Shown here one piece after another: positions 26,002 to 36,375 of a stretch of 36,375 nucleotides of DNA. This stretch comes from Methylocystis sp. (GTDB lineage: Bacteria > Pseudomonadota > Alphaproteobacteria > Rhizobiales > Beijerinckiaceae), in the NCBI GenBank assembly GCA_016177005.1, contig JACOWC010000054.1, positions 1-36,375 of the forward strand, read 5' to 3'. Every line of letters starts with the position of its first letter. Positions within the stretch are counted from its first letter, which is position 1. The position numbers and the translations under genes are program-made. A model generated the notes under the pieces. The model saw only the letters and a list, made by a program, of their open reading frames with translations. It was not told where the DNA came from and ran no database searches.

Positions 26002-27273
26002 TTACGCAGATCCGCCAAAACGATCCGCCGCCGCGCTGATGGCGTCGTAAACGAGATCGAGCTCGGCTTCCTCGACGCAGTACGGCGGCAAGACATAGAT
26101 CGTCGGCCCGAGCGGGCGCAACAGCAGTCCGCGCTCATTGAAGAAGCGCATGAGATCGAGCGCGATCGTCGCAAGATAGCCGCCTTGCGCGACATTGAGA
26201 TCAAGCGCCGTGATCGTTCCAAGCTGACGGGCGTTGGAGAAGCGCGCGTCGCCGGCAAAGCGCGCAAGGCGTTTCGCCTGCATATCGCAAAGCGCCGCGA
26301 CTCTCGCGGCGGGTTCTCCCGTCGCCCAGATATCGAGATTGGCGAGCGCCGCGGCGCAGGCGATCGGATTGGCGGTAAAGGAGCTCGAGTGAAAAAAAGC
26401 GCGCGCGCGCTCCGGCGATAAATGCGCCTCGAAAATTTTGCGCCTGCACATGGTGACGGCGAGCGGCAGCGCGCCGCCGGTCAGGCCCTTGGCGTAGCAG
26501 ACGATATCCGGAACGACGCCCGCCTGCTCGCATGCGAAGAGCGTTCCCGTGCGTCCGAAGCCTGTCATCACCTCATCGGCGATGAACAGCACGCCGTAAT
26601 GTGCGCAGATGCGTTTCATCTCCGCCAGCGTATCGGCGCCGTAGATGAGCATGCCGCCTGCGCCAAGAATGAGCGGCTCGACAAGAAAGGCTGCGGGTCT
26701 CTCCCGACAGGCGCGCTCGAGCGCGTCGAGCGTCTCCTGCTCCCGTCCGCCTATGGGGAAGGGAATGCGCGACACCTCATAGAGCAGCGGCTCGTAGGGC
26801 GCGTTAAAAGGCGAGCGCGCGCCGGCGGACATCGTTCCGATCGTATCGCCATGATAGCCGTGTTCGAGCGCGACGATGCGTGTGCGCGCGTCCTGACGAT
26901 TGCGCCAGAAGCCGAGCGCCATCTTGATCGCCACTTCGACGCAAGTGGACCCGCTATCGGAATAAAACACATAATCGAGCCCCGGCGGCGTCAGCGCCAC
27001 GAGCCGCCGCGCAAGGGCTTCCGCCGGTTCGTGGGTAAAGCCAGCGAAAATCACCTGATCGAGCCGTTCGGTTTCCTCGCGGATCACTTGCATGATCGCC
27101 GGATGGCGATGGCCATGGGTGATCACCCACCAGGACGAGATGGCGTCGAGAAAGCGCCCGCCGTCGTCGGCTTCGAGCCAAGCGCCTTCGGCGCGCGCGA
27201 TCTTGAAGGCGCCCGGTTGCAGCGCATGCTGGGTGTACGGCCGCCAGATCGGCGAGTCGATGACGAAGCTCAC
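26002..27273 (-). CDS. bioA: Adenosylmethionine-8-amino-7-oxononanoate aminotransferase
   Basis: IWRPYTQHALQPGAFKIARAEGAWLEADDGGRFLDAISSWWVITHGH; GTLFACEQAGVVPDIVCYAKGLTGG. Confidence 0.95.
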   Translation of the reverse strand: MSFVIDSPIWRPYTQHALQPGAFKIARAEGAWLEADDGGRFLDAISSWWVITHGHRHPAIMQVIREETERLDQVIFAGFTHEPAEALARRLVALTPPGLDYVFYSDSGSTCVEVAIKMALGFWRNRQDARTRIVALEHGYHGDTIGTMSAGARSPFNAPYEPLLYEVSRIPFPIGGREQETLDALERACRERPAAFLVEPLILGAGGMLIYGADTLAEMKRICAHYGVLFIADEVMTGFGRTGTLFACEQAGVVPDIVCYAKGLTGGALPLAVTMCRRKIFEAHLSPERARAFFHSSSFTANPIACAAALANLDIWATGEPAARVAALCDMQAKRLARFAGDARFSNARQLGTITALDLNVAQGGYLATIALDLMRFFNERGLLLRPLGPTIYVLPPYCVEEAELDLVYDAISAAADRFGGSA

Positions 27274-27905
27274 CCGCCGCTCCCAAAGGCGTCGCGCGCG
27301 ATCGCGGCGTTAAACGCCGCGCGAAGCGTGTTCTGATTCAAAGGATCAAGTTTCGGCAGCCGGCCGAGAATGCGTGCGCCGCCGATCGTCTCGATGGAGC
27401 GTTGCGCGTCGGCGTCGGCCGCGCCGGAAAAAACGATGCCCGTTATCGGAATCGACCGTCTGCGCAAGGCTTCGAGCGTGAGCAGGCTGTGACTGATCGT
27501 GCCAAGACTCGTGCGCGCGACGAGAATGACAGGAAGCCGCCAGCGCTCGAGCACATCGATCGTCAGCGCACGATCGCTGAGCGGCGTCATCGCGCCGCCC
27601 GCCGTCTCGATCACGAGAAGACCGCCGCACTGTGGCGGGGTCAATGCGGCGGCGTCGATTTCGACGCCCTCGTCGCGCGCGGCAAGGTGGGGGGAAGCGG
27701 CTCGACGCAATCGCCAGGCTTCGGGGAAAATGCGCGCGGTGGGCGCGCCCGAAAGCCGCGCGACAATTTGCGAGTCCGTCTCGCCGTCGAGGCCCGCCTG
27801 CACCGGCTTCCAATAATAGGCGTCAAACGCGCCGACGATCGCTGCGGCGACGATGGTCTTGCCGACGCCGGTGTCCGTTCCGACGATCACGACCGGGCGG
27901 TTCAT
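27270..27905 (-). CDS. bioD: Dethiobiotin synthetase
   Basis: VIVGTDTGVGKTIVAAAIVGAFDAYYWKPVQAGLDGETDS; ETAGGAMTPL; four-base overlap with bioA. Confidence 0.93.
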   Translation of the reverse strand: MNRPVVIVGTDTGVGKTIVAAAIVGAFDAYYWKPVQAGLDGETDSQIVARLSGAPTARIFPEAWRLRRAASPHLAARDEGVEIDAAALTPPQCGGLLVIETAGGAMTPLSDRALTIDVLERWRLPVILVARTSLGTISHSLLTLEALRRRSIPITGIVFSGAADADAQRSIETIGGARILGRLPKLDPLNQNTLRAAFNAAIARDAFGSGG

Positions 27906-29035
27906 GATTTAAGTCTCGACAACTCTTCGCCAAGATGCGCGATCATGCGCGCAACGTCTTCCTTGCGCGTATTGAGCGTCAGGGCGATGCGCAGCCGGGC
28001 CGAGCCCTCCGGCACCGTCGGCGGACGAATGGCGCGAATATCATAGCCATGCGCCTGCAGGCGCGACGCCAACGTCGTCGCGCGCACGTCGGCGCCGACG
28101 ACGATCGGTTGAATCTGGCTTCCCGACGGCTCCATCGCGCAAAGCCGGCGCAGCTCGGCGCCGGCGAATTCGACTCGCGAGATCAGCTCGGCGCGCCGGT
28201 CGTCGGCAGCCTCGATGATTTTGAGCGCCGCGCGCACGCAAGCAGCGACAATGGGCGAAGGCGCCGTCGCGAAAATGAACGGCCGGCAGCGGTTGATCAA
28301 GAAATCGCGCAAGACGCGCGGCACACAGAGGAGACCGCCCGCCACGCCCATCGCCTTGCCGCAGGTGTGCAAGGTGATGACATTGTCCGCGCCTTCAAAA
28401 CGCGCGGCGAGGCCACGGCCGCCCGGACCGTAGACGCCCGTCGCATGCGCTTCGTCGATCAGCAGAAAGGCGTCGCTCTTTGCGGCGAGCGCATAGAGAT
28501 CGTCGAGCGGCGCCTTGTCGCCATCCATGCTGTAAAGGCTTTCGACCACGATCCAGACCTGCCCGCGTCCGCCCTTTGCGCGCCAGGCGCGGATCGCGTC
28601 TTCCGCGGCGCCGGCGTCATTATGAGCAAAACTCGCATTCGGCGCACGCGCCAATCGCATGCCCTCATGAGCGCTGGCGTGCGCGAGCGCATCATAGAGA
28701 ATAAGATCCTCGCGCTGAGGCGCAGTCGAAAGCAGCGCCTCATTGGCGGTAAAGCCGGCGCTGAAGTAAAGCGCGCTGTCAGCGCCAAAGAAGCGCGCGG
28801 CCTCCTCTTCCAAAGCCTCATGCTCCGGATGATTGCCGCGCAAGAGCCGTGAGCCGCCGGCGCCGATGGGAACGCCGCGGGCGAGCGCAGCATTCGCGGC
28901 TGCGGCGAGTTCCGACGATTCGGAAAGCCCCAAATAATCGTTAGACGCGAAATCCAACCCGACCCGCGGCGCCAGCATGCGCAATCTGCCGCGCGCCGCG
29001 AGGCCGGCGAGATCCCGCGTATAGCGATCGAACAT
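27902..29035 (-). CDS. bioF: 8-amino-7-oxononanoate synthase
   Basis: FASNDYLGLSESSELAAAANAALARGVPIGAGGSRLLRGNHPEHEALE; IDEAHATGVYGPGGRG. ATG at 29035 (MFDRYTRDL...) preferred. Confidence 0.93.
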   Translation of the reverse strand: MFDRYTRDLAGLAARGRLRMLAPRVGLDFASNDYLGLSESSELAAAANAALARGVPIGAGGSRLLRGNHPEHEALEEEAARFFGADSALYFSAGFTANEALLSTAPQREDLILYDALAHASAHEGMRLARAPNASFAHNDAGAAEDAIRAWRAKGGRGQVWIVVESLYSMDGDKAPLDDLYALAAKSDAFLLIDEAHATGVYGPGGRGLAARFEGADNVITLHTCGKAMGVAGGLLCVPRVLRDFLINRCRPFIFATAPSPIVAACVRAALKIIEAADDRRAELISRVEFAGAELRRLCAMEPSGSQIQPIVVGADVRATTLASRLQAHGYDIRAIRPPTVPEGSARLRIALTLNTRKEDVARMIAHLGEELSRLKS

Positions 29036-29052
29036 GAAGGATCGATCCTGTA

Positions 29053-29397
29053 TCAGGAGAACCGCTCCCATGCCGCTTGGCGGGAGACGCCCAAAGCCTT
29101 GCCGATCGCCGTCCAGCTGACCTCGCGTTTGCGAAGCGCCGCGACTTGCGTGTGGATGAAGGAATGCAGCGCCGCGACGCTCGCCTCGCTCGCCTTGATC
29201 GAAGAAAGCAGCTGCTCGTCAGAAAGATCGTCCCAGCTTTTGAAAGGCGAAGGCGCTGCGTCAAGGATTTTGTTGCACACGCCGACGCAGTCTTCGCAAA
29301 TGTAGCCGCCGGCGGCGCCGCCGACGAGTCGCGAAACCTGGGTCTCCGCCTTTCTGCAAAAGGAGCAGCGCAGTTTGCGTTTGGGCAGGGCCAGCAT
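29053..29397 (-). CDS. Small ClpX-type C4 zinc-finger protein with C-terminal helix-turn-helix-like segment; first gene of the bio operon
   Basis: CSFCRKAETQVSRLVGGAAGGYICEDCVGVCNKIL (C-x2-C ... C-x2-C as in ClpX ZBD) and VSWTAIGKALGVSRQAAWERFS (HTH-like). SD-like GAGGG before ATG at 29397. Confidence 0.85.
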   Translation of the reverse strand: MLALPKRKLRCSFCRKAETQVSRLVGGAAGGYICEDCVGVCNKILDAAPSPFKSWDDLSDEQLLSSIKASEASVAALHSFIHTQVAALRKREVSWTAIGKALGVSRQAAWERFS

Positions 29398-29410
29398 CGC
29401 AGTCCCTCTT

Positions 29411-29429
29411 TGTCAAGCTTGACTTGACA
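29411..29429. promoter_or_regulatory. Putative operator palindrome 1: TGTCAAG-CTTGA-CTTGACA
   Basis: Perfect 7-bp inverted half-sites separated by 5 bp, 14 bp upstream of the zinc-finger/HTH gene start. Confidence 0.6.
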
Positions 29430-29443
29430 TACGAAGCTGGTCT

Positions 29444-29462
29444 TGTCAAGCATTCCTTGACA
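29444..29462. promoter_or_regulatory. Putative operator palindrome 2: TGTCAAG-CATTC-CTTGACA
   Basis: Same half-sites and 5-bp spacer as palindrome 1; starts exactly 33 bp away. Confidence 0.6.
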
Positions 29463-29512
29463 GGCGACTTGAAACCGTCACGATGAAACGCGATTTAGTC
29501 AAAGTGTGTATT

Positions 29513-29548
29513 GGAGCGTTTCCTGGAGCGTCTCTTGCAGCGTTTCTT
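29513..29548 (+). repeat. 12-bp imperfect tandem repeat, three units (GGAGCGTTTCCT / GGAGCGTCTCTT / GCAGCGTTTCTT), followed by partial GGAGCAG
   Basis: Read directly from sequence between ATG 29483 and ATG 29561. Confidence 0.8.
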
Positions 29549-29560
29549 GGAGCAGCCGTC

Positions 29561-30046
29561 ATGACCGCGCCGATGCGCGAGGATGCGTCGCCTTCCCGCA
29601 TTCCCTGGCCCCCGATTTTGATGGGGCTGACGCTCGCGGCCGGGCTGGCGCTCGACGCCGCGACTCAGACGTCGCTCATTGATCGGGCGTCCTCTTCTTT
29701 CATACAAGCCGCAGGCGCAGCGATCGTCGTCCTGGCGCTCGCTAATGATGTCTGGTGCTTTCGCATTTTCTCGCGCCATCAAACTACGATCATGCCGCAC
29801 CGCGCCGCGTCCTTTCTCGTCACCGAGGGACCGTTCCGCTTTTCGCGCAATCCGATCTATGTGTCTCATGTCGCTTTGATCTTTGGACTGGGTCTGTTCC
29901 TCGGCTCGCCCTTCACGCTGCTGTTGACGCCGGTTCTTGCGGTTGGCCTGACCAAGCTCGCCATCAAGCCCGAAGAGCGGCGCCTTCTTGAGAAATTTGG
30001 CGACGACTATCGGTCCTATGTGGCGCGCACGCGGCGGTGGCTTTAA
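29561..30046 (+). CDS. Isoprenylcysteine carboxyl methyltransferase / phospholipid methyltransferase-like membrane protein (start 29483 or 29561)
   Basis: [33 protein letters not shown]...[29 protein letters not shown] 29561 preceded by GGAG at 29549. Confidence 0.8.
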
Positions 30047-35183: not shown

Positions 35184-36375
35184 TTAGGGCATGTCGCCGG
35201 CGACGAACTTCGGAATGACCGGACCGATGACCGGACCGCCGATTTCGGCCGCGAAGCGGCGTCCCGACGGCGAGAAGAACATCAGCAAGCCGCCGATCTG
35301 GCTGTCGGTGTCGTAAGCCAGGTCAGACAGACGCTCGATGTCCCAACGCGCGTCCTGCACCTTGACCGCGATTTCCTTGGTCTCGCCCGGCGCGATCGGC
35401 GTCGGGTCCGTCGACAGACCGCGGTCGGCCAACAGATAGTCCGGGAAGTCGGGCTTGGTCGTGAACACGTCAGGGTTCAGGAAGCGCAGGCCGGCCGTGG
35501 TGTATTCGCCAAGACGCAGCGGCTCAGAGGTCGAGTTCGTGACCTTGACGTTGATCGTCAGCTCACGGCCCGGAACCTTGTAGACGCCGCCATCCAGCTC
35601 GCTCGTCACCCGCTCCTTGCCGACGCCCGCCGTGCCTTCCGTCACGATCGGCGTCAGAGGCTTCTGCAAGCCGGCCTGAAGCGGAATCGTGCGCGGGAAC
35701 GTCGAGTTCGTCACCGCATAGCCGACAATCGTCGCCAGAATGGTCAGCGCCAGAACGATCGCGCCAATCCGCTTGTCGTCGTCCGTCATCTGCTCGTCCA
35801 CCTTGCCGGTGGCCACACGCAGATAAGAGGCGATGATGCCCTTGCGCACGAACCAGAACAGGATCCACGCCGCGCCGACCGCAAGCCACGGCAGAATGCC
35901 ACGCATAAACGCGGCTGATGCCATAGGTCTCGAGGTCGACCGTCGAGCCGTCAAGCAACGTCACCGGATCGGTGAAGTCCTTCATGTCGCCCTTGATCTC
36001 AATCCACTGGCCCGGGCCGATGATCGGTCCGCCGCCCTCGACGTTGATCTGCGCATGAACATGCCAACGGCCGGCGCGACGACCGCGCAGGTTGATCGAG
36101 AAGGCGTAGTCGTTGCCAGGAACAAGCGACACCGAACGTGGCGCAAACTGCTCGCCAATAAACTGCGCCGTGCGAACCAGAACCGGGCCGGGCTCGCCGG
36201 CGTTCAGGAACGACACGCGCGGATTGGCGACCGCCTGCGGCCAGGCCGAGAACACATGGATCTTGCCCGACAGCACCATCTCTTCATTGACGTTCACCGT
36301 CGTCTTCGACCACGAAACGTCATACCAGTTCAACGTGCGCATCCGAAGAAACGCCTGCTGAGACTTCTCGCCGTG
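35184..36375 (-). CDS. pmoB: Particulate methane monooxygenase subunit B, truncated by the window edge and interrupted by an apparent one-base frameshift near 35895
   Basis: HGEKSQQAFLRMRTLNWYDVSWSKTTVNVNEEMVLSGKIHVFSAWP...RWHVHAQINVEGGG...YGISRVYAWH | LPWLAVGAAWILFWFVRKGIIASYLRVATGKVDEQ...IPKFVAGDMP. Confidence 0.93.

Follow-up and report, generated by a model that had tools for sequence, protein, structure and literature searches.

The window analysed here, a contig of 36,375 nt (G000:C161), belongs to a Methylocystis MAG of 2.06 Mb that is 65% complete. Its minus strand carries a gene with an ATG start (29053..29397) for a 114-aa protein which, as the first-pass annotation had recognised, combines a ClpX-type zinc finger with an HTH domain. 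The gene indeed heads a tight minus-strand run of bioF (27902..29071; 8-amino-7-oxononanoate synthase family, TIGR00858 E 5e-102, under its curated cutoff), bioD (27270..27905; Pfam AAA_26 E 3.6e-57 and synteny) and bioA (26002..27273; Pfam Aminotran_3 E 7e-96 and synteny). The bioF-bioD and bioD-bioA junctions are ATGA/GTGA overlaps, and bioFDA is presumably co-transcribed with the regulator gene. For bioF, an ATG at 29035 is a more likely start than 29071, since the alignments of sister BioF proteins begin at residues 8-17. On the other side a PEMT/ICMT-type methyltransferase gene diverges on the plus strand (29483..30046; assigned by Pfam and synteny); its true start is probably at 29561, because the alignment with most orthologues begins only near residue 24.

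The zinc-binding domain (ZBD) of the small protein is a clear zf-C4_ClpX match in Pfam (residues 10-46, 29260..29370 on the minus strand; E 3.2e-14, 53 bits versus a cutoff of 27), and its four cysteines (Cys11, 14, 34 and 37) are invariant in an alignment of 39 family members. The family finger stays near the ClpX consensus (CSFCGK...AGPGVxICDxCV), from which the Methylocystis finger has drifted at the AGP position (VGGAAGGYIC), so that binding of ClpX ligands may be weaker here. In the AlphaFold model (mean pLDDT 86.8) the finger superposes on the ClpX ZBD structures 2ds5 and 2ds8, the latter a ZBD-XB complex, with 0.8-0.9 Å over 40 residues. It is also the sole part of ClpX that was matched: Pfam and TIGR profiles found no AAA+ domain in the protein, and the genome's own ClpX is encoded elsewhere (G000:C41). 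The remainder, about residues 50-113 (29059..29250, minus strand), was assigned by profile search to a RelI/ClpC2-type helical dimerisation and HTH domain, with a predicted recognition helix RQAAWERF (residues 106-113, 29059..29082, minus strand) that is near-invariant family-wide. Pfam itself gives only sub-threshold matches for this segment (HTH_AsnC-type 0.003, HTH_23 0.022), and with the full model as query Foldseek returned convincing matches for the ZBD only, so the kinship of the HTH rests on sequence profiles. Profile searches detected no GntR, biotin-ligase or TetR domain (biotin-ligase profile TIGR00122: 11.7 bits, cutoff 70), and the defence libraries gave no match to the regulator.

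Upstream of the regulator gene lie two predicted operators with the exact sequence TGTCAAG-N5-CTTGACA, a proximal one at 29411..29429 and a distal one at 29444..29462, which end 13 and 46 nt before the ATG and start 33 bp apart. These twin palindromes had already been reported in the first pass, and they turned out to be conserved upstream of homologues. Taking GTCARG-N5-CYTGAC as the family site and accepting upstream sites with at least 11 of the 12 conserved bases, we found that 74 of 95 non-redundant homologues carry a site directly upstream; two sites are usual, and some homologues have three (range 1-3). Exact sites precede all 17 close orthologues and 46 of 74 distant homologues, as against 3 of 4638 background 200-bp windows, a figure that likewise counts exact sites. 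Three homologues obtained after the motif had been defined all have twin sites (L201 and, from another sequence collection, L258 of Nonomuraea and L259 on a Streptomyces zaomyceticus plasmid). The recurrence of twin sites in orthologues and distant homologues argues that the palindromes are not due to chance. Accepted sites are missing from 18 Nocardioides homologues, one of Chloroflexota, one on a short contig, and L202; in most Nocardioides ZBD-HTH homologues (L093-L112, L114) the roughly 260 bp ahead of the gene contain nothing recognisable as an operator, and the 18 site-less ones nonetheless keep SRQAAWERF. The Chloroflexota homologue (L092) does have two sites, but with N4 instead of N5 spacers, CGTCAGGTAGTCTTGACG and CGTCAAGGTATCCTGACA. 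The idea that the 33-bp distance represents three helical turns was not borne out as a rule: site-to-site spacing is 33 bp in Methylocystis and ranges from 18 to 48 bp across the family, which rules out a fixed helical phasing.

A genome scan for further palindromes, suggested in the first pass, yielded no exact copy beyond the two described in this 65%-complete MAG. Genome-wide, the excess of exact sites over a reversed-pattern control is barely larger than the regulator's own pair, and in one Methylocystis genome (G078) the own two are the only ones. Therefore, the comparison points to a local autoregulator and not to the master of a regulon; exact sites beyond the own promoter are near background, which speaks against a wider regulon, and a site recurring at a distance of about 27 kb in part of the Methylocystis genomes falls inside long ORFs. 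No consensus sigma-70 promoter is found between the regulator gene and the divergent methyltransferase gene. By eye, a TTGAAA-type -35 element for a divergent PEMT-copA promoter can be placed in window 29465-29500, a few bases off the distal operator, and owing to this proximity the regulator could also affect the PEMT-copA side. In several relatives, the TTGACA of the distal site and a TAYCYT within the proximal site, likewise placed by eye, could serve as -35 and -10 elements, similar to the report for clpC2.

The linkage to the biotin genes has a much narrower distribution than the operators. Orthologues with 89-100% identity occur in 17 of 39 genomes of the same GTDB genus; all 17 lie directly upstream of bioFDA, and opposite PEMT-copA wherever the contig extends that far. 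A homologue with 68% identity in a further Methylocystis MAG likewise heads bioFDA. In 13 orthologue-less sister genomes examined, the locus is otherwise the same, with copA-PEMT diverging from bioFDA; both the regulator gene and the palindromes are absent from it, and bioF stands behind a short TTGAC-type promoter. Four of these 13 genomes carry a distant paralogue (about 41% identity) elsewhere, together with its own operators. Most simply, the gene would have entered the PEMT-bioF gap jointly with its operators; loss in the sisters is the alternative. Relatives outside this clade (36-60% identity) were found in Alphaproteobacteria, Actinomycetota, Myxococcota, Chloroflexota and Binatota, none of them near bioF, bioD or bioA, an outcome that the first pass had itself listed as counting against its proposal. 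Their neighbour genes are unrelated from one genome to the next: no conserved partner gene emerged, and downstream we encountered an AMP-ligase, a hydrolase, a PLP enzyme, an RsgA GTPase, a convergent glutamine synthetase and others. Profile searches by class and order at E 1e-15 retrieved mostly ClpX itself, with very few full-length members of the family, which makes the family distribution patchy. Judging from these comparisons, the bio linkage is restricted to one Methylocystis clade, and the operators go with the regulator gene rather than with the bio genes. Of the initial proposal of an autoregulated bio repressor or sensor, autoregulation via the twin palindromes is thus very probable, whereas a dedicated biotin role finds no backing.

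The best solved-structure match of the C-terminal domain is RelI (Rv2664, PDB 9sdc; profile E 8e-12), a toxin antagonist that, unlike our regulator, has no zinc finger. Fusions to DUF3887 and DUF2812 are reported, with an occurrence almost limited to Actinomycetes, and inverted repeats were not found upstream of RelI (PMC13284704). A RelS-type toxin gene is absent next to the regulator, whose neighbours are bioF and PEMT here and varied elsewhere. A second, modest match is the N-terminal domain of ClpC2 (PDB 8ada; E 0.0036), which is partial as the crystal chain goes no further than residue 72. In mycobacteria and other actinobacteria, ClpC2 (Rv2667) dimerises via this domain, represses itself through CGTCAAC-n5-GTTGACG, often in two copies that can be bound at once, is released by cyclomarin A bound to its ClpC1-like N-domain and, once induced, titrates cyclomarin A off ClpC1 (PMC10030653). 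Both proteins therefore share a dimer/HTH domain fused to a Clp-ATPase N-domain and an operator plan GTCAA-S-N5-S-TTGAC, usually in two copies directly upstream, and by analogy self-repression would be expected here as well. However, in ClpC2 the Clp_N domain (the ClpC1 N-domain) follows the HTH, whereas here zf-C4_ClpX precedes it; the half-site is GTCAAC versus GTCARG, the helix QKR/QQR versus WER, and in Methylocystis the regulator heads bioFDA. As Clp_N is absent, the 114-aa regulator is not a ClpC2 member.

The ClpC2 authors assign the DNA contact to the C-terminal Clp_N domain, namely R185 and R189 (PMC10030653). In six ClpC2-type proteins (L260-L265) we found, past residue 72, a TKQAAQKRF-type sequence in register with SRQAAWERF; all six genes have twin CGTCAAC-type sites, and the two proteins checked by Pfam both carry Clp_N. 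Arthrobacter phage PeggyLeg03 gp35 (L266:1498-1692; 64 aa) consists of the HTH only and has twin CGTCAAC-N5-GTTGACG sites, while Microbacterium phage PensacolaC28 gp19 (L267:1471-1782) has a helix with QERY and one TGTCAGG-N5-CCTGACA. Both phage genes adjoin tyrosine integrases, and their products are possible phage repressors of this class. Since an HTH-only phage protein and ClpC2-type proteins share the twin sites, the operator appears to go with the HTH and not with Clp_N. Besides, the sixth base of the half-site tracks the helix (G with WER or QER, C with QKR or QQR), a correlation with few independent origins behind it. Contrary to the R185/R189 assignment, we thus infer that the HTH is the specific DNA reader, and that of ClpC2 is probably its HTH continuing past residue 72. 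Resolution is poor in a tree of 38 HTH rows, which gives no proof that the ZBD fusion arose only once.

Taken together, we consider it likely that the regulator parallels ClpC2 on the ClpX side, as a self-repressor that uses the ClpX ZBD as a sensor, a decoy or both. The first-pass alternative of a ClpX adaptor or decoy came closer to this than the biotin sensor, the DNA-binding domain being that of ClpC2, a self-repressor and decoy. According to this model, the protein would dimerise via the helical/HTH domain at its C-terminus, possibly with a contribution of the ZBD, each HTH would read one GTCARG half-site with one dimer per GTCARG-N5-CYTGAC palindrome, and two dimers on the twin operator would shut the promoter of their own gene. 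The ZBD would be the input by binding some usual partner of the ClpX N-domain, the candidate classes being adaptors or substrates, phage proteins and small molecules; the bound ligand would free the operator, and the induced regulator would then also sequester that ligand as a decoy or buffer. Its own gene would be its only target in most genomes. In the one Methylocystis clade, with gene and operators between the PEMT-copA side and bioFDA, transcription of bioFDA behind the regulator would tie biotin synthesis to the same signal. The parts of this model differ in strength. Comparison across genomes establishes the family, its conserved operators, the HTH homology and the lineage-specific bio linkage, and strongly supports operator recognition and autoregulation; dimeric DNA binding, repression, derepression by a ClpX N-domain ligand and decoy action are modelled on ClpC2. 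Repression rather than activation is likewise an analogy with ClpC2, as the window yielded no consensus promoter. The best hint for the decoy role comes from four Candidatus Binatia (Binatota) genomes, in which a 62-aa ZBD-only gene (L061:5971-6159, L064:5989-6177, L066:2766-2954, L067:5989-6177) directly follows the twin operators and overlaps the ZBD-HTH gene behind it, an arrangement that would fit the finger itself being the wanted product. Counting against the model are the Nocardioides homologues without sites, the Clp_N assignment of the ClpC2 authors, the drifted Methylocystis finger and the fact that RelI, which matches more closely in sequence, is an antitoxin for which operators were not detected.

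A serious rival, although in our view an unlikely one, is an autoregulator whose finger only dimerises in a zinc-dependent manner or senses zinc or redox state and is unconnected with ClpXP. Control by zinc or redox state is frequent in regulators of this type, the four cysteines are all invariant, and in phage the HTH and its operator exist without any sensor domain. A finger of this kind does not account well for the retained ClpX fold and near-consensus sequence, for the ZBD-only partner proteins in Binatota or for the ClpC2 precedent, in which the same HTH is joined to a Clp N-domain. Improbable is a dedicated biotin regulator repressing bioFDA in response to biotin, biotinyl-AMP or an intermediate of the pathway, in spite of the strict linkage within the clade, a bioF that is single-copy in nearly all Methylocystis genomes compared and the lack of a BioR box (TTATCTATAA-like) in front of bioF in the sister loci. 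Beyond the clade, relatives have the same architecture and operator without bio neighbours, which rules this reading out as the main one; the sister genomes have bioFDA without the regulator gene, and profile searches found no biotin-binding domain. Likeness to BioR, BirA or BioQ is confined to an implied control of biotin genes, drawn from operon position only; these proteins have a GntR, biotin-ligase or TetR domain, and the operator described here is unlike TTATCTATAA. The first pass, too, saw neither a BioR nor a BirA signature, and BioR-type control of the locus was rejected, as the sister bioF loci lack its box and genome counts of the box fall under the reversed-pattern control.

Very improbable is a ClpXP adaptor or antitoxin-like protein that acts mainly through protein-protein contacts and, as has been suggested for RelI, does not use its HTH fold on DNA. 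In its favour, RelI, the nearest relative of solved structure, binds a toxin with the same fold; the operators co-conserved with the gene, the near-invariant recognition helix and the lack of a conserved downstream toxin partner speak against such a role. We see the slimmest chance for palindromes that serve as sites of an unrelated factor or merely as promoter -35 elements. The half-site does include TTGACA and overlaps plausible -35 boxes, but both arms, the N5 spacer and the tandem copies are conserved across phyla together with the regulator gene, and the palindromes are absent from sister bioF promoters that retain one TTGAC.

In the literature searched we found no description of regulators with a ClpX finger and an HTH, and database annotation of the family is generic ("ClpX C4-type zinc finger protein"); apparently undescribed, the family has ClpC2 as its closest described system. 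ClpX itself shares the fold and the C4 motif of the finger (2ds5-2ds8, 1ovx) and has an AAA+ unfoldase, whereas here the finger is fused to an HTH. Clp-ATPase N-domains are docking sites of adaptors, substrates and antibiotics, and ClpC2 is the described self-repressed decoy of ClpC1. If a ClpX version does exist in several phyla, "Clp N-domain + HTH + twin operator" would be a general design, pointing to natural ClpX ligands still to be found. More tentatively, and with somewhat less than even confidence, we envisage a widespread family of self-repressed ClpX N-domain decoys or sensors that would buffer ClpXP against N-domain-binding inhibitors, phage proteins or adaptors and, in Methylocystis, couple ClpXP status to biotin synthesis. 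A corollary would be that ClpC2 reads its operator via an HTH whose recognition helix the crystal structure lacks. This offers a testable correction for ClpC2, with the HTH as reader and the base after GTCAA following the helix (G for WE/QE, C for QK/QQ), and the Methylocystis locus makes a link between ClpXP and biotin control testable as well.

Apart from the bio locus, pmoB at the contig end (window 35184-36342, minus strand) is split over two reading frames, with positions 11-160 of the Monooxygenase_B profile in one ORF and 161-377 in the other; the split is a frameshift, which may be genuine or stem from misassembly.
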